From positions 1 to 23,203 of the IMG/VR virus record IMGVR_UViG_3300049489_000772: DNA of 23,203 nucleotides; one strand, given 5' to 3'. This document shows, in pieces, positions 1 through 23,203 of this stretch. Every line of letters starts with the position of its first letter. Positions within the stretch are counted from its first letter, which is position 1. This DNA comes from a virus. The translations under genes were made by a program, and so were the position numbers. Under the pieces are notes generated by a model. The model did not search any database and had not been told where the DNA came from. It saw nothing but the letters and a program-made list of their open reading frames with translations.

Positions 1-3000
1 CCGTGGCGGAGCCAACGTGCTCCATCTTCTCCATGAATGAACGGAAGCGAGACCCCACTGTCTTGTCCATCATCCCGAACTTGATCAGGAGGTCATCCTT
101 GCCGAACCCCACATCGGAGTTTCCGAAACGGTAATCCCCCATGCCGGACTGCGCCTTGAATGCCTGCGCTGCCTGCCCGTTGTTGTAGGCCTCCCGGAAG
201 CCAGTAACCGTGTTGTTGGTCAGGGTCAGGTTGGCACCGGTCGTCATGATGCCGGACGACACGGCACCCCTGATCGCGTTGCGGATCATGAAGGGCGGGG
301 TGAGCGTAATGCCCTGACGGAAGATGTTGGCCATGTCCGTCATGAAGCGCATCATCGTGCCCTGCTGGACCGGCTGCATGCCCGCAAGGGCAAGCATCAG
401 GGGGTATGCCTCCCGCCCCTCGGGGACAATCCAGCTCTCGACGCCGCCCTGCCACACGCGCACCGCGTTCTCGTCTGGCTTCTTCGCCGTCAGAGGCTCG
501 ACCCGAGCCAGCCCCGCGATCTGCATGAGGTCAAAGGTCTGATTGGCGGCGCGGTTCCGCATGCCTGCAGCCTGAATGGCCTGGCTGTTGCGGATCATGT
601 TCTGCATCAGGTTGTCGATGCGGAGCTTGTCGCCACCCTTGATCGCACGGATGCCCGGGTCGCGGCTCAAGACACCCGTCTTGGCCGTTCCGGCCCGATA
701 TTCCGGCAAAACCAGCTCTGGCGAAGTGCCATCTACCCTCTCGTCCGAACGGTAGAAGGGCACATAGAAGTCATCAGCCTGCATCGCCAGCTTCTGCGCG
801 CGGTTGATCCGCCCGGACTGTTCAAGGAAGTCCAGGTTGGCGTCGTTGAACTTCTTCCATTCGTCGGCGGCCTGCTGGAACTCCGGCACAGACGCGCCTT
901 TGGCCAGCGCGGTCTGAATGTCCTGCGGCGTGAGTGGGGTCTTGATCCCGCGCTTGGCAAGGTCCTGCGCCCGGCGGGCGACCATCCATTGCATCCAGTC
1001 CTGCAGCCGCTGCCCGCGATCGGCACCATCGCCCCCGGCCAGCTTAAAGATGTCGAACAGGCCAATCGTGCCGGGCGCGACAGAATACTCACCGTGCTGC
1101 CCGAAGGCGGCAGCGCCGTAATAGAGCATTGCCTCTTGGCGACCACTGTCCTGCACGGCCATCTCAACGGCCTTGAAGGCGCTCTCCGCACCGGTAGCCA
1201 AGCCGCCATTGATCGCGATCTCCAACCGCCGGATCGGGGCGGCGGCATTGAAAAACGTGTCTTCAAGCATCTGCATGAGGGTGCGGTTCGCCACTTGGGG
1301 CGAGTGCGCCATCTGCTGAACCTTGGCCACGAGCGACTGGCTTTCTGGAAGCTGCGCCATGTAATCGGCCACATCGACCGCGCGCCGGACCTCGGGCGCC
1401 AGATCCTCGATGCGTGATGCCCCCTGCCCGCGAACCGGGACGCTGGCAGGGGGCGATCCGGCGGCGGCAGCACCCGCGCCAACCTCCGGAACCTCTTCAT
1501 CGACAGCGCGGCGCAGTTCTGCGCCCGCCTCAGGAAGCTCAGCATACTGGGGAACGAAGTCGTAGGTCTTCCCCTCCTCGTTCACCACCTGGACATCCTC
1601 CCCAAAGACGGGGGTCGAGGTCATCAGGTCGTCGTAGTTGTAGCGCCCGACATTGTCGAACTGCTCAATATCAAGCTCGACCCCCTCGCGCCGAGCCATC
1701 GCGGTCAGTTCCTCGTAGATGGTCTTGGGAACCTCGATCTGCTCCATGATCGTCCGCATGCTCTCGCGGACCGCAGACGAAATCGCGCCCTCGTGCTCCC
1801 GGGGGACCGTGAAGCTGTCGTGGTTCGTGGTGATGTAGGCCCCGTCGGTCGCGCGCTTGTAACGCTCGACCGCACGATGCAGCACCGCGGCGTCGTAGGA
1901 TTGAACGAGGTTCGCCCACACCGCTTTGGCAACCTTGTCATGGTCAGGCTCAGGCTTGTCCACCTTGAATTTGATGGTGACCTCGGTCTCCTTATTCCCC
2001 GCCGTTTGCTTGACGCGGGTCTCCGCCTCGACGCGCTTTTGGCGCCGCACGGCAATCTGGCCATCGAGGCCTATGGTGAGCTCGATGGTCGGGGCCGCGT
2101 CTCCATATTTGGCGTAGAGCGCCCTGGACAGGTCTTTGACGGCAGCCAAGGTCCACTTCTGCAGGGCAAGCGCATGGGGCGCAGTCTTCTCTACCCCCTC
2201 CATGCCTGCCTCGGTCAGATAGGACCAAGCCCCCTCGTTGTCCGTCCCCGGGAGTTTAACCGTGTTCTTCAAGACCTTCTGCAAGACCCTGCGGAAGTTC
2301 TTGTCCAGGCCGCCATAGTTCATCGCGATGATGGCCGGCTTGATGCCGTCGCGATCAAGCGCCCAGGACTTCGGGTTTGCCGACGGGAAGATGGTGTCGA
2401 CAAAGTAGCGCGCCCACTGCTTGCGCTTCTCGGCTTTCCTGCGGGCGACCACGCCCAGACCGTCAGGGATGGCGCTCTCAGCGTCCCGAAGCAGGCGCTG
2501 CCGCATGGCCTCGAGCGTGTTGTTGTAGAGGTCGGACTTCGAGTATCCAGGCTCGGTGGCCTGCCCGCGCCCCATGTTCAAGTGCGGAGCGGCAACGTGG
2601 TCATAGGCCATCAGCGCGTTGATCTGCCAGCCAGAGGCAGAGTTGTCGACGGTGACCATGTCATCGACGATATTCTTGCCCTCATGCACGAAGATCGCCT
2701 TGATGTCGCCGTCAGCCTGCGGGTGGAACGAGCCATCTGCGTAAATCCGCCCCCGATCGTCGATCTGATAGAGGAAGCCAACGTCTCCATCAGGGCCATG
2801 CTTCGCAACGAAGGCTTCGTAGGCGGCCCGCAACTGACGGATGCGACCCTCAGCGTCACGGCGCTTCTCGTTGATCTTCCATCCAACATTCTTGATGTAG
2901 TCCTTGAGCTTCATGCCCTTGAGGTCAAAGCCAGGGAGGCTGTCAGGCAATGCCCTCAGCTTGCTGCCCGGAGGGAGCGCAGCCATCATCGCCTCTACTT

Positions 3001-6000
3001 GGGGCCTTATGACATCCCACTGGGGGATGTCTGATTTCTTGAGGCCGTCCCGCGCCAGGGATTTGCCGGAGATCAGGTCGTCGGGACGGATGGCGTAGAG
3101 CTTGGTCCGGTCGATCTTGTAGCGATTGCCCTGCAGGTAGCGTGCAGTGCGAGCGGCCGCTTCAAGACCCTCGGGCGAAAGCCTGTTGCTCTTCTCTCTC
3201 CGCTTGAGTTTCCGGGTGTCGTTCGTATCCTTCAGGGGAGGGTCAAACTGCATTCCCTCCGGTCCAACCAGCTCTGTGAACCTGCGGAGTTCGGGGGAAA
3301 CCTCCAGGAAGTATGTCTTTCCCTCACCCCAACCCCCAGCTGAGGCGAACCTGTTCTCCACACGCCTGATCTCGCCGAAGCCGGCGTTGTTGATCAGCCG
3401 CTCAAGGCCCAAGGCCAGTTGAAACTCAGGCCTGTACTCGGGCTTGAGGCTCCAAATCTTAGTGCCGACCTTAGTGGCACGGTTCCTCCTGACCTCGTCG
3501 CGCTGGAAAAGCATGTCGAAGGTAATCGGATCCCTGAACATCGCCCGACGAACATCGGTCACTGTGTACATCTGCTTGCGACCGTCGCTCCGAAGATACT
3601 CCCCGACCCCTGCGATAAGTTGGTCGCGGGAGATAATGCCGTCGCGGATCATCTTGGCAGTGGTGTTCGCCTTGGCCGTTTGCGCGGTCAGGTCCGCAAT
3701 GATCTTGTCGGCAAGCTCCGCGACACGCTCCTCGTTGTAAGCGGGGCGCTTCCGCCGGTTGGAGCTTCGTGGGTCCATGTAGCCAAGGACATCTTGCTCT
3801 AGGTCGAAGCCCTCTGGATCCCAGTCGTCTCCGCCGGCGTCGCCGTCTTCGACCGCTCCATCCGCCTCATCGACAGCTCTTCGCTCGCCAGCTGATCCCC
3901 CTGGGCCGCCAGCTTCCTCAGTTCCCGTTCGTCCAGCAGCTCCATCTCGTGCAAAAGCTGTGGCTGTGGTGTCGGTGACGGCGTCGACTGTTGCATTGAC
4001 GTAGTCCTTCTGCTTGTCGGACAGGCCCCGGAACGAGGTCTGATACTCGATGGCCCCCGCCATCTCCATCGCCTGCAGGAACGCCTCCTGACGGATCACG
4101 GCCCGCTCGATGAAGGGCATGTCTTGCGGCAAGGTCGTCGCAAGATGCTCCCGAACGGCGCGGAACACCCGGAAGAAGCCCTCGGGATTGTAGCGGCGCA
4201 GGGGTCGCATGACGATGACCGAGCCATCCGGCAGCACAGCGCGAAACTTCTGGCCCGACATGAGCGAAGCTCGAATGTCGGCAGACGAGAACGGGGTGTT
4301 CTGGGTGTGGGTGTGGGTGAACGTGACCGCCCGGTCGTTCAGCCCCTTCGCAGGCGGCATGATCGCGTTGACCATGTCGTTCGTCCCGACGCCCAAGACC
4401 TCGCCGGTGGCCTCGTTGACGTGAGCGCCGACCTCGAAGCCACTCTCGGCCGACCACTCAAGCATGGACGCCTCAAGGGCTTCCAGGCCTTTGCCAACCT
4501 CAAGGCTGGACGCCAGGTTGCGATAGGGATTGCCCCCCTCGATGTCGAAGCCATCGGTTGCCGGCACCCGCTTGTAGACCTTCGCCGCCATCGCTTGGCG
4601 GCCAGCCTCCCGATTGGTGGGAACCCCCGCAGTGATTGCACCCATCATCGCAATGTCTGCGTCTTCGCCAGCATCGCGGCTCGCCTCATAGGCGGCGGTC
4701 GCGCGCTTGCGCGCGGCGGTGTCCGTCACGCCGCGGCGGGTAAGGGACCGCTCGACAATCGCCCGCTCGGCGGCCCTGTCCGGAGCCAGACGGATGGCTA
4801 CCGCTTCTTCGGGATCCATGGCGGTGTCGAGCGCGTTGCGCGGACCGGCGGGCGCTGCCGCGCCCACCGGTCCTGATGCCTCACCCTCGGGCTGCAAACC
4901 CTCAGCTTCGGCGGATTGAGCCGTGGGCCCTGACGCCTCACCGCTCGCCGGGACCGCTACACCCTGAGCCTGCAGAACACGACGCGCTGCTTCCACCGCA
5001 GGTGTGGGCAGACCGCGCCGCGCCTCAAGATCGGCGATCTCGTCTGTGAGCCTATCAACATCCTCAGGAGATGTCGCGGCCCGTCTCTGGCGCTCGAGGC
5101 GCTTGATCTTCCCGTCGAGGCCGGCGTCCGGGCGAACGTCCGCCTCCGCCTCGGCGATGATTGCCTGCGCGCGCTCCGCGCGCAGCGCGGGCGCAAGGGT
5201 TTCCGGGAACTCAATCTCGGTCTGCCGCTCGATCGCACGCTCGCGCGCCGTGCTTTGGGCCGCACGGCGGCGTTGGGCCTCCGTCTGCCTTCCCTCCTGC
5301 TCGACAGCCTTCAGGGCTTGAGCAGGGGTCAGACCCTCCACCTTGACGCGAGCATCAATACGGGCCTGCTGCCGCTCGGCCAGAGCCTCATCCAGCTCTA
5401 TGCGGGCCTGCGCTTTCCGCTCGGGGTTCGCCATCGCATCGAGGCGGGTCTGCAAACGATCGACCTGCCCCTCCGCCGCCTCAAGGCGGTTCACCACCTC
5501 CTCACCAACCTCGGGCGACAATGCCTTCTGCGGCTTGAGGCCGATCTGGGCCAGCCGGTCCATCGTCTCACGCCGGCGCTCCCGCTCCAGCGCCTCGCGC
5601 TCCTTGCGGACATCCTCCAAGGATTTGGGAGCACCTATGGTGCTGGCGATGGTGTCGATCCGGTCATCCAGTTGGCGGTTCACCTGAAGACGAAGATCTT
5701 CGATCACATCGTCCGCCGATCCATCCTCGGGCCGATCGGCCTCAAGCTGCCGAAGGTTGGCAGATCGCGTGCGCTCGACCAGGCCAATATCCTTCACGGC
5801 GGCCCGCAGCTTTTGCATTCCCTCTTTCGTCTTGACCAGCTCATCCAGCTCCGCAGGGCCAAGCCCCAGGGGCTCCAGTACCTTGGCTGCAACCTTGACC
5901 TCTTGGGCGGTCTTCTGGTTCGTGATCTTCTGCTGCATTGCGGAAGCCGTGCCTCCAGCAGCGCCACCCAGGCCAAAGCCCGACAATGCGGCAACAACCC

Positions 6001-7033
6001 CATCCCGGCCGAAGGTGTCGGCAATCCAGGGGCCGAGCGTATCCCAGTCCTCCTTCGTCATCTTCGACCGAAGCTCGGGGTTGAGGAATACCTCCTCAAT
6101 GGCGGTGTCGATCACCTCCTGGCCGCCCTCGAGCACGCCCGTTTTCGTGCCCCCCGCCATGAACTGGCCGATCGCTGACCGCACACGCTCCGATGGTTTC
6201 GAGAGTTTGCCGAACAGAGACAGGGGTGTCGCCACAACCTCGAAGAGGCCGCGGATCAGCGACTGCCTGGTGTTGAGCTCATCAAGGTGCGGGTCTTCAG
6301 GGTCAAGCCCCTCCTCGATCATCCTGTCCTTGCCCATTGCCTTGTAGGCGGCAGAGGCCACCGTAAAACCGCCCAACGCCCCGCCGATGACAACAGCCGC
6401 CTTCCGACCTTTGCCGGGGACGGCATCCAGGGCTGCGTTCCACGCTTTGCGCTTGACCAGCGCCCTCACCTCCGGGCTGAGGGCATCCCACGCCTTGCCC
6501 GACAGCTTGCCGCTGGCGAAGGTCGCCAGAGTGGAGCCAGCGAGCTGCGGAGAAGACTGGACCAAAGCATCTCCAACCGTCTCGGCAATCGCCCGTGGCG
6601 CCCCGATCTCATCATCAGCTTCGCGCTGGGCCCGATCCGTCGCACGCTTGTCGACGGCCGCCCTCTGCGCTTCTGTCGGCCCGATGAAGTCGCCGATCGC
6701 GTTGCCTGCATCCTCAAGGACGTCAAGGCCGGTCACGTCCGCCGCAACCTCACTAAGGCCCGAAACCAGGTTGGACGCATAGTCGCGAGCCGCGGGAAAG
6801 AACTGACCAAGAGCGGAGGCTGGCTCGACGGGACCGGCCGGGGTGGCAGAAGGGTCCTGTGGCGGAGGCGTGGTTGCCGCCCCCACCATGCTGGTGGCCT
6901 CCTCGAGAGAATACCCCTGCCGGCCCAACTGAGCGATGAGCCTGGAGCGATCCTGCATCGTCATCGGCGGCTGAGGCTCGTTCAAGCCAGCGCCTGCGGG
7001 CTGGGTCCCGAACCCAAGGCCTGCCTGATCCAT
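1..7033 (-). CDS. Giant polyvalent virion protein with T7-like single-subunit RNA polymerase domain (3' end outside window)
   Basis: The frame is open for 2,344 codons from ATG 7033 (upstream GGAAGG) and leaves the window at the left edge. Single-subunit RNA polymerase motifs are visible in order. A DDRGR-IY block at 1425-1431 matches the T7 DWRGRVY element. Motif A is DNSASG-Q with catalytic D1463. Motif B is R1561-x3-K1565-x7-Y1573-G, the same spacing as T7 R627/K631/Y639. Motif C is H1738-D1739-S-F. Residues about 860-920 contain E867...H907-T-H909-x6-S916-x2-D919, a JAMM/JAB metallopeptidase-like signature. Residues about 205-230 are hydrophobic and glycine-rich, and about 410-700 are E/R/Q/A-rich and probably coiled coil. 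The last about 120 residues resemble large-polyvalent-protein domain LPD38 (weak, from memory). It is the last visible gene of the virion operon, the place of T7 gp16. I infer that it is packaged and ejected with DNA, like N4 vRNAP. The polymerase call is strong; virion location is inferred. Confidence 0.85.
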   Translation of the reverse strand, partial: MDQAGLGFGTQPAGAGLNEPQPPMTMQDRSRLIAQLGRQGYSLEEATSMVGAATTPPPQDPSATPAGPVEPASALGQFFPAARDYASNLVSGLSEVAADVTGLDVLEDAGNAIGDFIGPTEAQRAAVDKRATDRAQREADDEIGAPRAIAETVGDALVQSSPQLAGSTLATFASGKLSGKAWDALSPEVRALVKRKAWNAALDAVPGKGRKAAVVIGGALGGFTVASAAYKAMGKDRMIEEGLDPEDPHLDELNTRQSLIRGLFEVVATPLSLFGKLSKPSERVRSAIGQFMAGGTKTGVLEGGQEVIDTAIEEVFLNPELRSKMTKEDWDTLGPWIADTFGRDGVVAALSGFGLGGAAGGTASAMQQKITNQKTAQEVKVAAKVLEPLGLGPAELDELVKTKEGMQKLRAAVKDIGLVERTRSANLRQLEADRPEDGSADDVIEDLRLQVNRQLDDRIDTIASTIGAPKSLEDVRKEREALERERRRETMDRLAQIGLKPQKALSPEVGEEVVNRLEAAEGQVDRLQTRLDAMANPERKAQARIELDEALAERQQARIDARVKVEGLTPAQALKAVEQEGRQTEAQRRRAAQSTARERAIERQTEIEFPETLAPALRAERAQAIIAEAEADVRPDAGLDGKIKRLERQRRAATSPEDVDRLTDEIADLEARRGLPTPAVEAARRVLQAQGVAVPASGEASGPTAQSAEAEGLQPEGEASGPVGAAAPAGPRNALDTAMDPEEAVAIRLAPDRAAERAIVERSLTRRGVTDTAARKRATAAYEASRDAGEDADIAMMGAITAGVPTNREAGRQAMAAKVYKRVPATDGFDIEGGNPYRNLASSLEVGKGLEALEASMLEWSAESGFEVGAHVNEATGEVLGVGTNDMVNAIMPPAKGLNDRAVTFTHTHTQNTPFSSADIRASLMSGQKFRAVLPDGSVIVMRPLRRYNPEGFFRVFRAVREHLATTLPQDMPFIERAVIRQEAFLQAMEMAGAIEYQTSFRGLSDKQKDYVNATVDAVTDTTATAFARDGAAGRTGTEEAGGPGGSAGERRAVDEADGAVEDGDAGGDDWDPEGFDLEQDVLGYMDPRSSNRRKRPAYNEERVAELADKIIADLTAQTAKANTTAKMIRDGIISRDQLIAGVGEYLRSDGRKQMYTVTDVRRAMFRDPITFDMLFQRDEVRRNRATKVGTKIWSLKPEYRPEFQLALGLERLINNAGFGEIRRVENRFASAGGWGEGKTYFLEVSPELRRFTELVGPEGMQFDPPLKDTNDTRKLKRREKSNRLSPEGLEAAARTARYLQGNRYKIDRTKLYAIRPDDLISGKSLARDGLKKSDIPQWDVIRPQVEAMMAALPPGSKLRALPDSLPGFDLKGMKLKDYIKNVGWKINEKRRDAEGRIRQLRAAYEAFVAKHGPDGDVGFLYQIDDRGRIYADGSFHPQADGDIKAIFVHEGKNIVDDMVTVDNSASGWQINALMAYDHVAAPHLNMGRGQATEPGYSKSDLYNNTLEAMRQRLLRDAESAIPDGLGVVARRKAEKRKQWARYFVDTIFPSANPKSWALDRDGIKPAIIAMNYGGLDKNFRRVLQKVLKNTVKLPGTDNEGAWSYLTEAGMEGVEKTAPHALALQKWTLAAVKDLSRALYAKYGDAAPTIELTIGLDGQIAVRRQKRVEAETRVKQTAGNKETEVTIKFKVDKPEPDHDKVAKAVWANLVQSYDAAVLHRAVERYKRATDGAYITTNHDSFTVPREHEGAISSAVRESMRTIMEQIEVPKTIYEELTAMARREGVELDIEQFDNVGRYNYDDLMTSTPVFGEDVQVVNEEGKTYDFVPQYAELPEAGAELRRAVDEEVPEVGAGAAAAGSPPASVPVRGQGASRIEDLAPEVRRAVDVADYMAQLPESQSLVAKVQQMAHSPQVANRTLMQMLEDTFFNAAAPIRRLEIAINGGLATGAESAFKAVEMAVQDSGRQEAMLYYGAAAFGQHGEYSVAPGTIGLFDIFKLAGGDGADRGQRLQDWMQWMVARRAQDLAKRGIKTPLTPQDIQTALAKGASVPEFQQAADEWKKFNDANLDFLEQSGRINRAQKLAMQADDFYVPFYRSDERVDGTSPELVLPEYRAGTAKTGVLSRDPGIRAIKGGDKLRIDNLMQNMIRNSQAIQAAGMRNRAANQTFDLMQIAGLARVEPLTAKKPDENAVRVWQGGVESWIVPEGREAYPLMLALAGMQPVQQGTMMRFMTDMANIFRQGITLTPPFMIRNAIRGAVSSGIMTTGANLTLTNNTVTGFREAYNNGQAAQAFKAQSGMGDYRFGNSDVGFGKDDLLIKFGMMDKTVGSRFRSFMEKMEHVGSAT

Positions 7034-7035
7034 CG

Positions 7036-10000
7036 TCAACCTTCCTCTGGCAGGGCGTAGGGATTGGTGCTCCACGCCTCTTGGCTCTTGATGCCGAGAT
7101 ACCGCTCAGCCATGTCCTGGGCGGCGTCAAGGGTGAGGGTCGGGTCCATTGCCATCAGCCAGTCGACGTATTCCGTCACCTCCTGAAGCTTCTTGGGCAT
7201 CCCGCCCTCCGTGCCAGCATCCTTGCGCGCTCTCAACTCCTCTAGCGCGAACTCTGCACGCCAGCGAGCGTCCTCGAGCATTGCATCCTGCTGCGCCGCA
7301 AGTGCAGCTTTTTCTTCGTCATTCGCTGCGGTGACGCTTCCAAGCCCAGCCTGAAGACCCTCCCCTATGGCCTGCCAGGTGTCGCCCTTCGAGGCCAGGA
7401 GCGTCGATCCGAAGGAGACGAGCGCCTCTGCAGCCTTGGCGCGCTCGGAGGCGTCCGTCATGCCGAGCTTGTCCCGCATCTGGCGATTGATCCAGTTCAG
7501 TTCTTCCTCTGCCGCCTCGGCGTCTTCAGCCAGACCCGCCGCCCCGCGCTCCCGCGACGTGTTGAGGTCCCCCACCGCACCCGGGGCGGGTCTGCCACTG
7601 GGGGTCGTGGGCATCTCGACAGCCGGCGCCCCAGCAGTCCCCATGCTCAACCCACCCGGGCCGCCAACGACCGAGCCGGGAGCCACAGCAGGCGCGGCAG
7701 GAGCGGCAGGCTGAGGCTCATCACCGTCAAGATCCAGAAGGCCGTAGGTCAGCCAATCCGCCCAGCCCCGCGGCTTCTCCTCAGGCTGCGCCTGACCTCT
7801 CGGATTGAGCACCTCATCGCCATCGACAAGGGAACTGACAGCAACGTCCACCGCCTCAGGATCGTCGATTGTGCTCGCATAGGCGGGGCCGAAGCCGAGC
7901 AGGGTTCCAACATCAGCCCATTGATCGCCCTGCCCACCCGGTTCGATCGTGGGGGGCTCTACGGGCGGAGGGGCTGCACCGGGCTCTTTCGGCGGCGCGC
8001 GCCCACGGGTCGGCTCGCCGGTCGGCGTCAGCCCCAGCATGGTGGCCATCTTCTGCCACTCCATGTCAGCACGGCGGAAGTCGGCAGCGTTTTCGTCAAG
8101 GAAGTCCCCAGGCATACCCTGCGGAGGCAGGACACTGATCGGCAAGTCGCTCGGCGCCATCGGTAGCTGCGGCAGGTTCGGCTTTGGCATCGGGCCAAGG
8201 CGAGGATCCTCGGGGATCATCGTGCCCATCTGAGGAGGCATCGGAGAGCCGGCGAACATCGGGAGGCCTGCCTCCATCCCGGCACCGGCCAGGTTGCCCT
8301 GCTGGATGTATTGCGCGATCGTCATGCTGCTGCCGTCGGGGTTCCGACCCAGGGCGCCAATCTCCTCAAGGCGCTTGAGGTCCTCCATCCCCGGCATCCC
8401 GTAAGCACTCACCCCGGTCCCGCCGCCAGATGACCCACCAAGGCCCTGGTCTACTGCGCGGGCATCAGCCGAAAAGGCCTCAAATTCCTCCCTGTCCCGA
8501 GCGACATCACCAGGAAGCGGACTTGCAACTGACGTATCAAGAGGGTCATTACCCAACAGCTCAGCACCCTGCCCACGCATGAACTCGCGATAAAGCGGGT
8601 CAGTGAATTCGCCAGCGCCACTAGCCTGCAGCGCCCCGATCCCCTTTCGGGCAAGCTCGTAGGGCTGCGCGGCTCGTTCATCCATGGGGGCAAGGACGTA
8701 GTCGAACCAATTAAGGGGGTTGGCCGCCGCAAGGCCGAAGTTGCCAGCGTCTTGGAGCCACTCGGGAGAGTTGTTGATCGCGTTGGATACCGGACTGGTC
8801 TTGTCCTGAAGCATAAGCTCCCAGCCCTCGCGGGCCGGTCCCGCAAGGTACTCCTCGTAGGGGTCCATGATGACCTTGTCATAAGCCCCGGCCATCGCAT
8901 CCCAGGCGCGCTTTGGCAGCCCGTCCGGGACGAGTTCGGGCAACTCGCGGCCCGCATCCTTGGCGCGAGCATATTCACCCGCGCGCCGCACATACTCCAT
9001 GAACGCCGGCTCAGCCCCAACGGCTGCAGCCGTGTTCTCCATGCCGGCATCCGTCATGGCCTGCATCCGAAGCCAGACGTCCTCGGCCTCCAGCTCGAGG
9101 TCGTACTTGTCGAGAGCGGGCTGCCCTCCCTCCTCGTAGATCCTCCGCCGCTCGGCCTCGATGGCCCGCTTGTCGTCAAGCGGAAGGACATCGTAGCCAG
9201 CCCCCGGAATGTCGGGCGCACCCTCGTAGGGTACGGGATTGTAATCAACGTCGATCAGCCCGCCACTCCCGGCCGCCGGCGCCGAAGGCGCAGCCTTGCG
9301 GCGTGGCGGCATGAAGTCGCTTTCGCCAAGAAGGGACGTGGGGCCGTAGGTCATGCCGGGAGCAGAGGCAGGCGGTCCACCCGCGTCGATTATGTCAGCC
9401 TCGGACAGCATGAGGGCAACACGCTCCGGGCCATAATAATCCCGCAGGAAGTTCGCCTCATCCGCCGTGATCTGTCCGGTTTCCATCAAGCGGCCAGAAA
9501 TCTCGCGCGCTGCCTGGCCCTCAGGGTCAGACGCTACGTCCTCAGTGATCCAGTCCTTCGCCTTGTCAGCCAGGTAGAGACCGCCGAGCGCAAGAACCCC
9601 ACCCTTGGCCCCCGCCTTTACCTTGCCGGTCCGAGCCGCCCGGGCCTCGGCCTTCTTCTTGTTCGCATTGTTGAGCTTGTCGCTCTGCTGCTTGTAGGTC
9701 AGCTTCTGGTCTTCATCAGCAAGGCGCTGGGCCTCTTTGGCATAGTCAACGGAATTGACCGACAGGATCCGATCGCGCTCGGCATCGAGTGCCGTTCCGG
9801 CATCAACAACCATCTTGTCAGCCGCCCTGCGATCGGTGGGCCGCAAAGCCTCCGCTGCTGCAATCTTCCGGTCGTAATCAGCCTGAGCAGCGGCGACCGC
9901 GTCCGCTTGAGCCTGGCCCACACCGGAAAGCTTCTCCCGCCCAGCCTCAACCTCCGTCCTGCCCTTTGCTGCCCGCTCCTGCATTTCGGAAAGGGTCGAG

Positions 10001-17547: not shown

Positions 17548-17563
17548 TTCCTATGGGGACCCC
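17548..17563 (-). promoter_or_regulatory. Phage promoter copy (GGGGTCCCCATAGGAA)
   Basis: Read on the minus strand this is an exact copy of the 16-nt motif, with the likely first transcribed base G at the ATA|GG step. It lies directly behind a terminator and 25 bases ahead of the 43-aa gene. Confidence 0.8.
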
Positions 17564-17760: not shown

Positions 17761-17784
17761 GGTGTTTCTCCAGTTGGGGTTGAT

Positions 17785-17803
17785 GTTTCCTCATGGGGAC
17801 CAC
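17785..17803 (-). promoter_or_regulatory. Variant phage promoter (GTGGTCCCCATGAGGAAAC)
   Basis: On the minus strand the core GGTCCCCAT is kept, but the left arm has G-to-T and the initiator reads ATGAGG instead of ATAGG. It lies 25 bases upstream of the 50-aa membrane protein gene in the same position as the exact copies. Possibly a weaker promoter. Confidence 0.6.
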
Positions 17804-17856
17804 GGATCCCAAGGTAGCCCGTAAGTTTACACTAATCACGTCAGCTAGATAGGCCG

Positions 17857-17873
17857 GCGCGGCTGCGCCGCGC
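17857..17873 (+). promoter_or_regulatory. GC-rich 7-bp/3-nt hairpin between divergent promoters
   Basis: GCGCGGC and GCCGCGC form a perfect 7-bp stem with a three-base TGC loop, flanked by AT-rich stretches, in the 119-bp gap between two divergent phage promoters. The 7-bp stem and 3-nt loop have the dimensions of N4 virion RNA polymerase promoter hairpins. That function is speculation; a bidirectional insulator or operator is equally possible. Confidence 0.4.
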
Positions 17874-17922
17874 TGCGGCGTCGGGTCGTTTTACCAATCA
17901 TTAGCTTTTATCAATAGGTTAC

Positions 17923-17938
17923 GGGGTCCCCATAGGAA
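17923..17938 (+). promoter_or_regulatory. Phage promoter copy (GGGGTCCCCATAGGAA)
   Basis: Exact copy of the motif on the plus strand, diverging from the minus-strand copy at 17785-17803. It lies 33 bases ahead of the 57-aa membrane protein gene, which has its own terminator. Confidence 0.8.
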
Positions 17939-17971
17939 GCAATCCGCTTTCGACACAAGAGGAGCGTTCCA

Positions 17972-18145
17972 ATGGAACACACGCTTGCCGCCATCGCCAA
18001 CGCATCGCTGACAATCAGCGCGCCGACCGTGATCACCGTCACCGCACTCGCGGGGCTCATTGGACTGTCCATGTATGTGGGCAGGAAGCTGACCCTGCAG
18101 CGGACGTCGATCAACTGGTTCAAGCGCTACAAGAACGCGAAGTGA
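17972..18145 (+). CDS. Small membrane protein, 57 aa
   Basis: ATG 17972 follows AGAGGAGCGTTCCA. The product begins MEHTLAAIANASLTISAPTV and has one long hydrophobic segment (about residues 17-35) ending in a short basic tail (KLTLQRTSINWFKRYKNAK). It is monocistronic, with phage promoter upstream and a strong terminator directly downstream. The size, single helix and basic C-terminus resemble small phage holin or membrane-targeting peptides, but no specific family is recognised. Confidence 0.7.
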   Translation: MEHTLAAIANASLTISAPTVITVTALAGLIGLSMYVGRKLTLQRTSINWFKRYKNAK

Positions 18146-18159
18146 CCTGATGGTCCAGG

Positions 18160-18189
18160 GCGTCCGCATCACGCGGACGCTCCTTTTTT
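18160..18189 (+). terminator. Rho-independent terminator
   Basis: Perfect 8-bp stem GCGTCCGC / GCGGACGC with loop ATCAC, followed by TCC and six T. It ends the 57-aa membrane protein unit 14 bases after its stop codon. Confidence 0.9.
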
Positions 18190-18191
18190 CG

Positions 18192-19856: not shown

Positions 19857-20748
19857 TCTGTCCCTCGCTTTCCCGGATCATGTCGAAGAAGGTCTTGCGC
19901 GTTGCGGGCGCCGACCGGTTCCATGTGTCGGCCAGCTTCCAGAGCTTGGCCTCTTCTGTGGTGGTGGGATCATCCTTGCGGGTCCACTTGTCCCGCGCGC
20001 CGTTGATCATGACGCAAAGCTGCTCGAAGGTTTCGGCTGGCTGGTGGCCGGCCCATGTCCACTGGAAGGTGAAGCGCAGGATCTCCGCGTCCGACCATCC
20101 TGATCCCACGAGGTGGGCGATGATGTCGCGGACCGGATCGTGCCAGGTGACGCCCTGCTCGATGAGGTCGCGCATGGCCATGATTTCGGTGGGGCACTTG
20201 CCGTCCTTGAGGTCCACGATGGCGCGGCGGAGCCGCGCTGCGGGGGGTTCTGGGGGTAACCCCCAGTCCTCCTTCTCGATGAGCCTCTCAAACCTGTAGC
20301 CGGGCGATGGAGGAATAAGGATATACCCTCCGTTGTTCCGGCAATCGACCCCCATCGCCCAGACATTGGCTGATGACTTGATGTCCTCGCGATACCGACA
20401 CAGGAAATGCAAGCCGCCGCTCTGTGTTCGGGATACGGTTGAGGCGAGCAGGTTCTTGCGGTTGTCGTCCAGCCATTCCATCGCGGATGCCCGGTGGGGC
20501 TTGCCCCTCCCGCAATCTACATCCACCACTGTGACCTGATTGATCTTTCCGGTGGGCATGCCGACGCCAGTGACGCGAGGGTGGGAGAAGAGGGCGACCA
20601 CTTCGTCCTCGTCGGTCGTGGCGGCATGCAGGCCGTCCCTGCCAGTGGGGCTCTTGCCCTTTTCCCAGACGGGCACCTTGCCTGCGACCGGGAAGATGGC
20701 CACACCATCGCCAGCGAGGCGGAGGGCTGCGTCAAGCAGGTTGCTCAT
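19849..20748 (-). CDS. Prim-pol type DNA primase/polymerase (bifunctional primase N-terminal family)
   Basis: ATG 20748 overlaps the HNH stop as ATGA and has GGCGGAGGG upstream; longer upstream extensions read through the HNH gene in another frame and are rejected. The 299-residue protein shows archaeo-eukaryotic primase signatures of the PF09250 group: GVAIFPVAGKVP at 15-26, GVGMPTGKIN at 61-70, metal-binding VVDVD (D76, D78), SGGLHF with H114, and the strand CRNNGGYILIPPSPGY. It makes primers, possibly extended as DNA, for replication. The C-terminal 120 residues are helical and probably contact the helicase, whose gene overlaps by 8 bp. In related elements both activities are often fused; here they are separate. 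Confidence 0.92.
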   Translation of the reverse strand: MSNLLDAALRLAGDGVAIFPVAGKVPVWEKGKSPTGRDGLHAATTDEDEVVALFSHPRVTGVGMPTGKINQVTVVDVDCGRGKPHRASAMEWLDDNRKNLLASTVSRTQSGGLHFLCRYREDIKSSANVWAMGVDCRNNGGYILIPPSPGYRFERLIEKEDWGLPPEPPAARLRRAIVDLKDGKCPTEIMAMRDLIEQGVTWHDPVRDIIAHLVGSGWSDAEILRFTFQWTWAGHQPAETFEQLCVMINGARDKWTRKDDPTTTEEAKLWKLADTWNRSAPATRKTFFDMIRESEGQND

Positions 20749-21301: not shown

Positions 21302-21375
21302 CCCTTGCGCCCCCTCGACAGGGCGCAAGGGCACTATGCGTCAGCCGGGTCTGCCTGTCGAGGGGGTCTGCCCTT
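21302..21375. promoter_or_regulatory. Overlapping, mutually exclusive perfect inverted repeats between divergent operons
   Basis: Three perfect dyads compete for bases. CCCTTGCGCCC (21302-21312) pairs with GGGCGCAAGGG (21321-21331). CCCCCTCGACAGG (21310-21322) pairs with CCTGTCGAGGGGG (21354-21366). AAGGGCA (21327-21333) pairs with TGCCCTT (21369-21375). The first cannot form together with either of the others. The region lies between the replication operon (minus) and the acidic-protein genes (plus), just upstream of a TTAATATT stretch. It could be paired operators for a regulator or an RNA switch in the plus-strand leader. Confidence 0.6.
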
Positions 21376-21396: not shown

Positions 21397-21567
21397 ATGG
21401 CACCGAAGCCTGACGACCTGGACGAGCTTGATGGTGACGACCTGCCTGACGAGGAAGAGGAGTTCCTCGAGCAGATGGGGCTGGGAGCGGATGGCACGCG
21501 GATGCAGCTTGGGGACACGGACCTGACGGGTCGTCCGTGGGAGCCGGATCGGGCTGACGATGAGTGA
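21397..21567 (+). CDS. Strongly acidic small protein, 56 aa
   Basis: ATG 21397 follows ACAAGGAGAGAACC. About 21 of 56 residues are D or E against four K/R, giving a net charge near -17; the first half includes DDLDELDGDDLPDEEEEF. No family is recognised. Phage proteins this small and acidic are sometimes DNA mimics that inhibit restriction enzymes, nucleases or host RNA polymerase, but composition alone cannot show it. It overlaps the next gene by 8 bp, so the two are co-translated. The leader contains the inverted-repeat region at 21302-21375. Confidence 0.7.
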   Translation: MAPKPDDLDELDGDDLPDEEEEFLEQMGLGADGTRMQLGDTDLTGRPWEPDRADDE

Positions 21568-21790
21568 GGTTCCGGCCGGAGAGGAGCTGATCCCCACGCT
21601 GGAGGAGGCGCTGAACACCGTGGCCCAGGCGCTGCCCGGGCTGGGCCTGACCACCTTCCAGGAGAAGTACATCTCGATGGTCCTGGTCTACGAGCAGGTA
21701 CAGCTGAGCGAGGGGTGGGTGGCCGAATGGATCACCGACATGGCCGGGGCCAGCGCTGGCCTGCCGGAGGATGATCAGGGGTCCCCATAG
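21560..21790 (+). CDS. Small acidic helical protein, 76 aa
   Basis: The ATG at 21560 lies inside the end of the 56-aa acidic gene. The product begins MSEVPAGEELIPTLEEALNT and is acidic and mostly helical, with an aromatic core segment (FQEKYISMVLVYEQVQLSEGWVAEWI split over about residues 33-58). No membrane helix or known motif is seen. Its stop codon TAG is the TAG of the ATAGG initiator of the phage promoter at 21778-21793, so the gene end and the start of the small-RNA array are fused. A terminase-small-like or regulator role is possible but unsupported. Confidence 0.65.
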   Translation: MSEVPAGEELIPTLEEALNTVAQALPGLGLTTFQEKYISMVLVYEQVQLSEGWVAEWITDMAGASAGLPEDDQGSP

Positions 21791-21793
21791 GAA
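21778..21793 (+). promoter_or_regulatory. Phage promoter, array unit 1
   Basis: Exact copy of GGGGTCCCCATAGGAA. The likely first transcribed base is G21790. Its TAG also serves as stop codon of the 76-aa gene. The next unit's promoter starts 94 bases downstream. Confidence 0.85.
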
Positions 21794-21862
21794 ACCAAGC
21801 CAATCCCGAGGACCGGAGAGGGCTCGTTACCTTGCCGGCCCGCGGCGAAGGTAGGTTTTTTT
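21790..21862 (+). ncRNA. Candidate small RNA 1, about 72 nt
   Basis: The interval from promoter initiation to terminator contains no ATG or GTG start, so a protein product is unlikely. It starts GGAAACCAAGCC, carries a purine-rich stretch (GAGGACCGGAGAGGG) and ends in a strong hairpin with seven T. The purine-rich stretch resembles anti-anti-Shine-Dalgarno bait or a leftover leader of a lost gene. Function unknown. Confidence 0.55.
21828..21862 (+). terminator. Rho-independent terminator of small RNA 1
   Basis: TACCTTGCCG pairs with CGGC-g-AAGGTA (one bulged G) around the loop GCCCG, followed by GG and seven T. The next promoter begins 9 bases later. Confidence 0.88.
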
Positions 21863-21871
21863 CAGACATCC

Positions 21872-21887
21872 GGGGTCCCCATAGGAA
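21872..21887 (+). promoter_or_regulatory. Phage promoter, array unit 2
   Basis: Exact GGGGTCCCCATAGGAA preceded by CATCC and the T-run of the previous terminator. Likely start G21884. Confidence 0.85.
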
Positions 21888-21904
21888 TACACGGCCTCGC
21901 CCGG

Positions 21905-21921
21905 CATGCCGCAAGGCATCG
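21905..21921 (+). repeat. 17-nt hairpin repeat, copy 1
   Basis: CATGCCGCAAGGCATCG, a 5-bp stem with GCAA tetraloop, near the 5' end of small RNA 2. An exact copy forms the terminator hairpin of the same RNA. Confidence 0.8.
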
Positions 21922-22008
21922 CTTGGTAGTCCCGCAAGGGGCAGGTCTGAAAGACATTTGATCCTGGCTTCGGCCGGGCGACGGTGAATGGAGGATCCAG
22001 GCCGGAAA

Positions 22009-22025
22009 CATGCCGCAAGGCATCG
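22009..22025 (+). repeat. 17-nt hairpin repeat, copy 2 (terminator stem)
   Basis: Exact second copy of CATGCCGCAAGGCATCG, here followed directly by six T (22026-22031), so it works as the intrinsic terminator of small RNA 2. Confidence 0.8.
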
Positions 22026-22045
22026 TTTTTTCGCCTCGATAATCC

Positions 22046-22061
22046 GGGGTCCCCATAGGAA
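22046..22061 (+). promoter_or_regulatory. Phage promoter, array unit 3
   Basis: Exact GGGGTCCCCATAGGAA preceded by GATAATCC, an upstream block also seen before unit 4 (AATAATCC). Likely start G22058. Confidence 0.85.
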
Positions 22062-22216
22062 CGACCGATGCTGCCCTTGATGGGCAGATGGATCGCCACG
22101 ACATGAGAGGAAAAGCACTCCCTGCGGGGATGCAACATGGAAAACGTGGAGAGGTACCACCCGCACGCTGAGAAACGGCGGCTCGATGAGACAGGTCAAA
22201 TCTGTCGTTCTTTTTT
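22058..22216 (+). ncRNA. Candidate small RNA 3, about 159 nt
   Basis: Hairpins include CTGCCC-TTGAT-GGGCAG (22071-22087) and TCCC-TGC-GGGGA near 22119-22130. Several ATG codons occur; the longest reading frame from one (22088-22171, 27 codons) has no ribosome binding site, so coding is doubtful. It ends at a GACAG/CTGTC terminator. It may act as a small RNA or as the leader of a very short peptide. Confidence 0.5.
22190..22216 (+). terminator. Terminator of small RNA 3
   Basis: GACAG / CTGTC stem (5 bp) with a 7-nt loop, then GTTC and six T. Weaker stem than the others, but in the same position, 15 bases before the next promoter. Confidence 0.7.
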
Positions 22217-22231
22217 CCGCTTAAATAATCC

Positions 22232-22247
22232 GGGGTCCCCATAGGAA
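22232..22247 (+). promoter_or_regulatory. Phage promoter, array unit 4
   Basis: Exact GGGGTCCCCATAGGAA, 15 bases after the T-run of unit 3. Likely start G22244. Confidence 0.85.
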
Positions 22248-22432
22248 GAACGAGACAACCCGTTCTCAACTGCGCCTGCTGTCAAGCATGCGAAGGAAGA
22301 AGTGAAAACCGACAGAGATCGGGCCGTGACAGGCTCTGGAGAAGGTCGGCGGAAGCTTCGCAGTTGATGGCACGTCCGCGCAAAGCCTTACCTGTTCGCA
22401 CAGGTCTGGACGACCGTGAGTTCTTTTTTTTT
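22244..22432 (+). ncRNA. Candidate structured small RNA 4, about 189 nt
   Basis: Long-range pairing CAACTGCG (22267-22274) with CGCAGTTG (22359-22366) encloses an 84-nt domain. An alternative pairing TGCGAAG (22289-22295) with CTTCGCA (22356-22362) uses the same right arm, so two folds exclude each other. Before these is GAACG/CGTTC (22247-22265). A 6-bp hairpin ACCTGT-TCGC-ACAGGT (22390-22405) follows, then nine T (22424-22432) that probably end transcription. No frame with a ribosome binding site is seen. A switch-like regulatory RNA is possible. Confidence 0.6.
22390..22432 (+). terminator. Likely terminator of small RNA 4
   Basis: Hairpin ACCTGT-TCGC-ACAGGT followed by 18 bases and nine T. 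The gap is longer than usual; outer pairing of CACG/TCC with GGA/CGTG may extend the stem nearer to the T-run. Confidence 0.6.
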
Positions 22433-22434
22433 GC

Positions 22435-22450
22435 GGGGTCCCCATAGGGA
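22435..22450 (+). promoter_or_regulatory. Phage promoter, array unit 5
   Basis: GGGGTCCCCATAGGGA, one base different from consensus in the initial transcribed region. Starts two bases after a run of nine T. Likely start G22447. Confidence 0.83.
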
Positions 22451-22615
22451 TGCAGTTAACGCTGCCCTGTCTGATGAAAGACGACGACATTGATAGTCAG
22501 ACTACCTACACCTACCCATCTCAGGGGGACGGTGGAGGCTGAGAGCCTAGGGTGCGGGGCCGACGCACCAAGATCGCATTCGTCACCGATTGGCACCCTA
22601 ACGGGTGCTTTTTTT
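22447..22615 (+). ncRNA. Candidate small RNA 5, about 168 nt, with possible leaderless 30-codon frame
   Basis: The RNA would start GGGATG, placing an ATG (22450) at +4. A 30-codon frame (22450-22542, beginning MQLTLPCLMKDDDIDSQTTY) follows without ribosome binding site, so any translation would be leaderless. The rest holds hairpins TCTCAG/CTGAGA (22520-22543) and GGTGCG-GGGCCGA-CGCACC, then a strong terminator. I favour a structured RNA, with a leaderless peptide as the alternative. Confidence 0.5.
22593..22615 (+). terminator. Terminator of small RNA 5
   Basis: Perfect 6-bp stem GCACCC-TAAC-GGGTGC followed directly by seven T, seven bases before the next promoter. Confidence 0.9.
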
Positions 22616-22622
22616 CTTGCGC

Positions 22623-22638
22623 GGGGTCCCCATAGGAA
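22623..22638 (+). promoter_or_regulatory. Phage promoter, array unit 6
   Basis: Exact GGGGTCCCCATAGGAA. It drives the 128-aa gene with a 30-base leader containing AAGGAG. Confidence 0.85.
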
Positions 22639-22664
22639 ACCAATCACGACCAAGGAGAACAACT

Positions 22665-23051
22665 ATGGAAGGAGAGTGGAAACTTTACCTATGGAGCAAT
22701 GAAGAGCACAATCTTCTGAAGCCAGGCATTACAACGCGAGCTGCCAAGAAACGCTTGCCTGAATACCTCAAGGAACATCCTGAACTTCCCCGCAAGGGAT
22801 GGCTACTACAGACCGAAATCCCTTTGGGGACGACACTTCGCATCACCGCAACCCTCATTGAGATTGCGGTGAAGGCGGTGCTGATCGTCGCCGGGGCAAC
22901 CGGCGTGGTCGCTGTCGCTGGGGCGAAAGGAATACATGAGGTCTTCAGGTGGAGACGTGACGTGGCGCTGGCTAAAAAGCTGGTTGAAGATGAAGTAGCC
23001 TTGCATCTGAAGGATAAGGCCAAACCCGCCAAGAAGCTCGCAAGAGCGTGA
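22665..23051 (+). CDS. Membrane protein with GIY-YIG-like N-terminal fragment, 128 aa
   Basis: ATG 22665 follows CAAGGAGAACAACT; an in-frame extension upstream would cross the promoter and is rejected. Residues 5-35 (WKLYLWSNEEHNLLKPGITT then RAAKKRLPEYL) resemble the start of GIY-YIG/T5orf172-type domains, where a Y-strand is followed by K-x-G-x-T and an RL helix. The rest of that nuclease fold is absent. Residues about 60-88 form a strong membrane helix (ATLIEIAVKAVLIVAGATG and onward). The C-terminus is basic and helical (KKLVEDEVALHLKDKAKPAKK). It is monocistronic, with its own promoter and terminator. A nuclease role is doubtful; a membrane-anchored exclusion or lysis-timing role is possible. 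Confidence 0.75.
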   Translation: MEGEWKLYLWSNEEHNLLKPGITTRAAKKRLPEYLKEHPELPRKGWLLQTEIPLGTTLRITATLIEIAVKAVLIVAGATGVVAVAGAKGIHEVFRWRRDVALAKKLVEDEVALHLKDKAKPAKKLARA

Positions 23052-23085: not shown

Positions 23086-23101
23086 GGGGTCCCCGTTGGG
23101 A
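23086..23101 (+). promoter_or_regulatory. Variant phage promoter, array unit 7
   Basis: GGGGTCCCC is intact but the initiator reads GTTGGGA instead of ATAGGAA. It sits directly after a terminator and ahead of another gene, as the exact copies do, so a weaker or differently timed promoter is likely. Confidence 0.65.
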
Positions 23102-23130
23102 GTAACCCCAAGCGCAAGAGAGGAGAGCAC

Positions 23131-23203
23131 ATGCTCACGAGCTACATCCGCCAAACTGAGATGCAGGACATTCAGCATCTCTCAACTGCGGACTTGCGAC
23201 AAC
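23131..23203 (+). CDS. Partial gene of array unit 7, function unknown
   Basis: ATG 23131 follows AGAGAGGAGAGCAC, a strong ribosome binding site. The frame stays open to the window end for 24 codons (MLTSYIRQTEMQDIQHLSTA and on). Too short to assign. It is transcribed from the variant promoter at 23086-23101. Confidence 0.6.
   Translation, partial: MLTSYIRQTEMQDIQHLSTADLRQ

Follow-up and report, generated by a model that had tools for sequence, protein, structure and literature searches.

Five tandem units on the plus strand of a tailed-phage fragment (positions 21778-22615), each with its own promoter and terminator, very probably form a real set of noncoding RNA genes. The fragment is a 23.2-kb IMG/VR sequence (record IMGVR_UViG_3300049489_000772, positions 1-23,203), called here the window in its whole length, and its source is a phage without close cultured relatives. 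The original prediction had proposed separately promoted, structured, noncoding phage RNAs, and this is supported by the promoters, by a contrast in translation signals with neighboring cassettes, and by folding and comparison with a related phage. The units, and the protein-coding cassette that serves as a comparator, are as follows.

21778-21862 (+): unit 1; promoter 21778-21791, inferred RNA 21790-21862 (73 nt), terminator hairpin followed by seven T
21872-22031 (+): unit 2; promoter 21872-21885, inferred RNA 21884-22031 (148 nt), terminator with six T
22046-22216 (+): unit 3; promoter 22046-22059, inferred RNA 22058-22216 (159 nt), terminator with six T
22232-22432 (+): unit 4; promoter 22232-22245, inferred RNA 22244-22432 (189 nt), terminator with nine T
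22435-22615 (+): unit 5; promoter 22435-22448, inferred RNA 22447-22615 (169 nt), UAAC-loop terminator with seven T
22623-23051 (+): next cassette, protein-coding; same promoter (22623-22636), Shine-Dalgarno (SD) sequence and a 128-aa ORF (22665-23051)

Each unit opens with an exact copy of a 14-nt promoter, GGGGTCCCCATAGG, and closes with a hairpin and a T run, so that the promoter and terminator expected of a noncoding RNA gene are both found. The predicted promoter spacings (94, 174, 186, 203 and 188 bases) are exact, the predicted tetraloops (GCAA, TTCG, TCGC and TAAC) all occur in the units, and predicted sizes of about 72, 148, 159, 189 and 168 nt compare with the 73, 148, 159, 189 and 169 nt that we inferred from the sequence. 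Unit 2 contains GNRA and UUCG hairpins. A strict terminator scan detected three of the five unit terminators, the remaining two being judged by eye. T runs measure 6-9 at the ends of RNA units versus mostly 3-5 for protein cassettes (window and related phage combined).

The only array-bearing relative that we found is a 69,145-bp IMG/VR contig, IMGVR_UViG_3300048586_000179 (hereafter G002). A further contig, IMGVR_UViG_3300048587_000215, is identical to it across the 20 kb compared, so the relative is present as two contigs. The polymerase segment is 81% identical between the window and G002, and a related polymerase, though not the array region, is present on a third contig (20 kb). Compared with the portal proteins of Pelagibacter HTVC023P, Roseobacter CRP-902 and Caulobacter RW, that of G002 shows 24-28% identity; in the stretches shown of the annotation tables of these three phages there are no RNA genes and no giant RNA polymerase. 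Other features of the window that bear on the array are listed below.

Left part (-): structural proteins, namely the giant ORF, a VanY-like peptidase, an endosialidase-chaperone tail protein and a virion structural protein
2-7075 (-): giant ORF of virion type (2358 aa), running off the window end; a T7-type RNA polymerase domain lies within 1376-3628
17550-17563 (-): promoter of the GGGGTCCCCATAGG type before a small ORF with an SD sequence
17790-17803 (-): another promoter of this type
17923-17936 (+): another promoter of this type
23086-23203 (+): promoter variant GGGGTCCCCGTTGG and the start of an ORF (MLTSYIRQ...) that is 94% identical in G002

The structural genes are followed by a D5-type primase-helicase and a prim-pol, and from about 21.4 kb rightward the genes lie on the plus strand, presumably as part of the early arm. 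Exact copies of GGGGTCCCCATAGG occur at 21778, 21872, 22046, 22232, 22435 and 22623 (+), and also at 17923 (+) and 17563 (-), eight in total. Allowing up to three mismatches, the window holds 13 matches versus 2.9 expected, and none of 100 shuffles had as many. Using the pattern G[G/T]GGTCCC[C/T]NNN[G/A]G we defined 40 promoter sites in the window and G002, across which positions 3-8 are invariant (partly owing to how the pattern was constructed). About 30 of these promoters are found in G002, where they precede nearly every small gene of the left arm; all lie in the early arm or beside its primase end, and the structural arm has none. One correction to the original prediction is that the array does not stand alone: it is the RNA portion of a more extensive early region, whose small genes are almost all organized as promoter-gene-terminator cassettes. 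The sequence ATAATCC stands immediately upstream of four of the eight RNA-unit promoters versus 0 of the 32 others (P 0.0008), and may be a strength element or merely reflect common ancestry of cassette ends.

The promoter ends in ATAGG, which resembles a T7-class start. The polymerase domain of the giant protein matches PF00940 (E 1e-10) and the RNA polymerase family PHROG 414 (1e-28); its sequence matches in the PDB are T7-type RNA polymerase chains only, with T7 RNA polymerase the best. It is the only polymerase of T7 type found in the window record and in G002, and we infer that it reads these promoters. A single-subunit polymerase domain within a giant protein recalls N4 and the Schitoviridae, which likewise have a giant virion-type protein with a T7-type RNA polymerase and a dedicated early-gene promoter (PMC4496689); in our phage the neighboring structural genes suggest that the giant protein is located in the virion. 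N4 has three early promoters, recognized as DNA hairpins centered at -11 (PMC4496689). Here, by contrast, there are about 30 promoters in G002, the start is the T7-like ATAGG, and the PDB matches are confined to T7-type chains. We rejected an N4-type hairpin promoter with a 3-nt loop, because position 2 is T in 14 of the 40 sites, which breaks a G-C pair of a short inverted repeat of at most three pairs. Separately, we noted by eye a JAB-peptidase-like motif, HTHTQNTPFSSAD, ahead of the polymerase domain in the giant ORF (2-7075, -).

The clearest distinction between the units and the other cassettes lies in translation signals. An SD-like sequence and a start codon follow all 32 promoters outside the RNA units versus none of the eight RNA-unit promoters (five in the window and three in G002; Fisher P 1e-8, a value that overstates independence in that the eight sites were set apart by this same feature). 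The SD and start mostly lie 4-26 nt from the inferred transcript start, with longer leaders at G002 21290 and 20322. As predicted, none of the units pairs a start codon with a good ribosome-binding site, and a conserved open frame with such a site, the lack of which is expected of a noncoding RNA gene, is absent. It is very improbable that the units instead encode very small proteins. The point in favor of that reading is a GTG frame of 21 codons (GTG + 20) with an SD-like sequence in unit 4, which is kept in G002. However, all four substitutions between the two copies of this frame are nonsynonymous, and thus we do not regard it as supported as coding. Unit 2 also differs from its G002 counterpart by a 1-nt indel, and the standard SD-ATG arrangement is missing from all eight units. 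Judged from the sequence, each unit combines a repeated phage promoter and a terminator with no well-supported translatable frame.

The array occupies the same genomic place in G002 in rearranged form. Slot 1 holds a 277-nt RNA whose sequence is unrelated to unit 1 (fold z -5.3). Unit 2 is kept (130 of 148 columns identical, 88%). Unit 3 is replaced by a promoter of the same type, an SD sequence and a membrane-type ORF of about 40 codons (MKWIYIAAILF...). Unit 4 is kept with 81% identity, comprising a core of 115 identical columns out of the first 127 (91%) and a 3' part with 42 of 66 (64%). Units 1 and 5 and the 128-aa ORF after unit 5 have no counterpart in G002. Because slots were swapped, lost or replaced in this way, RNA and protein cassettes are interchangeable modules, with gain, loss and replacement between two related phages and with units 2 and 4 retained. 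In its terminator-promoter junctions between RNA units (window 22026-22245; L016 2612-2652 of G002) the region carries TTTTTTCGCCTCGATAATCC-like sequence, possibly a homology patch for cassette exchange.

Third-codon identity between the window and G002 is just 0.47-0.65 in five of the genes measured (leaving out the measurement acidic53, which used an out-of-frame copy), so units 2 and 4 seem to evolve slowly. Part of their high identity could come from recent local exchange: window 17781-18191, which includes the gene of a 58-aa membrane protein, shares 88% identity with G002, and the gene has a third-codon identity of 0.89, far above other genes, and this similarity may itself reflect recent exchange or overlapping constraint.

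These observations bear on whether the units, especially 1, 3 and 5, are remnants of small genes, decayed or reduced to little more than a promoter and a terminator, whose products have no function. The turnover of cassettes between the two phages fits such an origin, as do units 1, 3 and 5, which lack a homologue and have weak fold scores (z versus shuffles of -2.1, -1.8 and -1.4; mean -0.3 for coding windows). For these three the absence of a homologue leaves the fold scores as the indication of structure. Units 2 and 4, however, are more conserved than most of the genes measured, which would be unexpected of relics, and we consider this explanation unlikely.

Changes in unit 2 point to RNA structure. 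RNAalifold on the two sequences gave 48 pairs, 12 of which carry substitutions; all 12 remain paired, two of them through compensatory double changes. The consensus energy is 6.3 standard deviations below that of column shuffles (z -6.3), and none of 1000 shuffles was as low. For instance, the hairpin CCUGGC-UUCG-GCCGGG of the window becomes CCCUGG-UUCG-CCAGGG in G002, and the loop GCAA becomes GAAA, both being GNRA. When the structure was fixed from one sequence, the result was one-sided: P 0.008 from the window side and P 0.64 from the G002 side, where the single-sequence fold differs. In unit 4 the three compensatory pairs do not exceed chance (z -1.4; two sequences), and fixing the structure gave significance in neither direction; its conservation appears to be one of sequence, with weak covariation. 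In this comparison of two sequences, covariation is good for unit 2 and weak for unit 4.

The compensatory changes and the GNRA-to-GNRA loop exchange in unit 2 also argue against a role of the region as DNA or in cis, as a transcription barrier, a replication origin or a packaging signal between divergent blocks. The array does lie near the turn point of two gene directions and five consecutive terminators would insulate, but five promoters would be superfluous for an insulator, and we hold a cis role to be quite improbable.

Database searches gave no relative of the RNAs beyond G002. For the window and G002, Rfam returned no relevant match for any unit at the gathering score or at E 10. This includes CRISPR repeats, which an RNA anti-CRISPR would be expected to mimic. 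ARAGORN found no tRNA or tmRNA, nor did Rfam, and a tRNA or tmRNA decoy was rejected on these fold results. There was no DNA similarity in phage and plasmid records. In IMG/VR, the core patterns of units 2 and 4 matched the same relative only, as its two contigs, and the promoter-plus-T-run pattern matched the relative and one unrelated sequence by chance. Six matches of an 18-mer of unit 4 in bacterial genomes have unrelated flanks and were set aside as chance. A comparison of unit 2 with 115 genomes from the class to which the Sphingomonas match belongs gave short scattered matches only. We also dropped a 13-base identity between TTTGATCCTGGCT in unit 2 (about 21957-21970) and the 16S rRNA 5' end, since it is not kept in G002 and is probably chance. 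Noncoding phage RNA is a known kind of molecule, and to judge by these libraries the arrangement and the RNA sequences appear to be new.

We propose that the array consists of five independent early genes whose products would be structured noncoding RNAs. Entering with the DNA, the giant virion protein would transcribe all cassettes early in infection through its T7-like polymerase domain, and owing to the separate promoters and strong terminators each RNA would be abundant and have a defined length. Less certainly, the RNAs would then target host factors in trans, serving host takeover or counter-defense as decoys, inhibitors or mimics. We favor this step because the RNAs belong to the same early regulon as host-interaction genes and show the same turnover of cassettes, and such host-directed action would most likely be their role. 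To the complete explanation, an early bank of noncoding RNAs that includes host-directed action, we give a little less than an even chance, the comparative evidence coming from two phages. The broader picture, a modular bank of RNA effectors of counter-defense or takeover, made by a polymerase carried in the virion as infection begins and with RNA and protein cassettes interchangeable in the same slots, is more tentative still.

Somewhat unlikely, in our view, is a regulatory antisense role, in which the units would control the timing of expression by pairing with mRNAs of the phage or the host. Their size and their own promoter and terminator would suit trans-acting sRNAs, a type reviewed for phages in PMC12197685. 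However, target prediction against the phage early mRNA leaders (5 in the window and 27 in G002) revealed no unusual complementarity (mean z about 0; longest perfect match 10 nt). Another structured phage RNA of comparable size, under 200 nt, is the prohead RNA of phi29. It is a single RNA of known fold; the units have no Rfam match to it even at E 10, and G002 encodes a conventional terminase large subunit according to profile matches, which makes a packaging RNA hardly credible. Of the original proposals, structured and separately promoted noncoding RNAs are supported; among the roles listed, packaging is disfavored, pairing with the phage's own early transcripts gained no support, and anti-defense action is a candidate.

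The proposed host-directed action would have counterparts elsewhere. Adenovirus VA RNAs and herpesvirus EBERs act on host defense factors; these viral RNAs are short and structured, are individually promoted and terminated, and in some cases lie in tandem. The comparison would concern the manner of working alone, as these belong to another domain of life, use another polymerase and share no homology. Two published cases serve as an analogy, rather than as evidence, for trans action on host components. In phage PhiTE, the noncoding pseudo-ToxI neutralizes host defense by antitoxin mimicry (PMC3475682). Pseudo-ToxI carries a tandem 36-nt repeat in one RNA, whereas the five units are unrelated in sequence and lack such internal repeats. 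We rejected a type III antitoxin mimic on a repeat search, which found tandem repeats in none of the units, apart from a 20-nt hairpin that is duplicated in unit 2. Archaeal viruses of the SIRV2 type express many diverse small early genes, proposed to be anti-defense genes, from a near-identical strong promoter (PMC11065993). Those genes encode proteins, whereas eight such cassettes in our two phages appear to encode RNAs.

Phage counter-defense and takeover have been studied mainly as the work of proteins, and here several early promoters appear to be given to structured RNAs of no described family. If the proposal is right, units 2 and 4 would represent a minimum of two new, conserved classes of RNA, and RNA effectors in the early regions of other phages could be sought by a simple rule based on the promoter.

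Three further elements were noted. The terminase large subunit ORF of G002 (44521-45471; L017 4521-5471) has just 316 aa, and several terminase profiles match it in their later part; the ATPase half may be encoded elsewhere. At G002 20059-20345 (L016 59-345), the promoter GTGGTCCCCATCGG precedes an ORF that begins ATGATG, and the leader between them is unusually long and apparently structured. In the window, two perfect stems of 11 and 13 bp overlap at positions 21302-21366, upstream of the ORF at 21397, and exclude each other. These stems are nearly invariant in G002 and are perhaps a conserved cis element, an attenuator or an origin.
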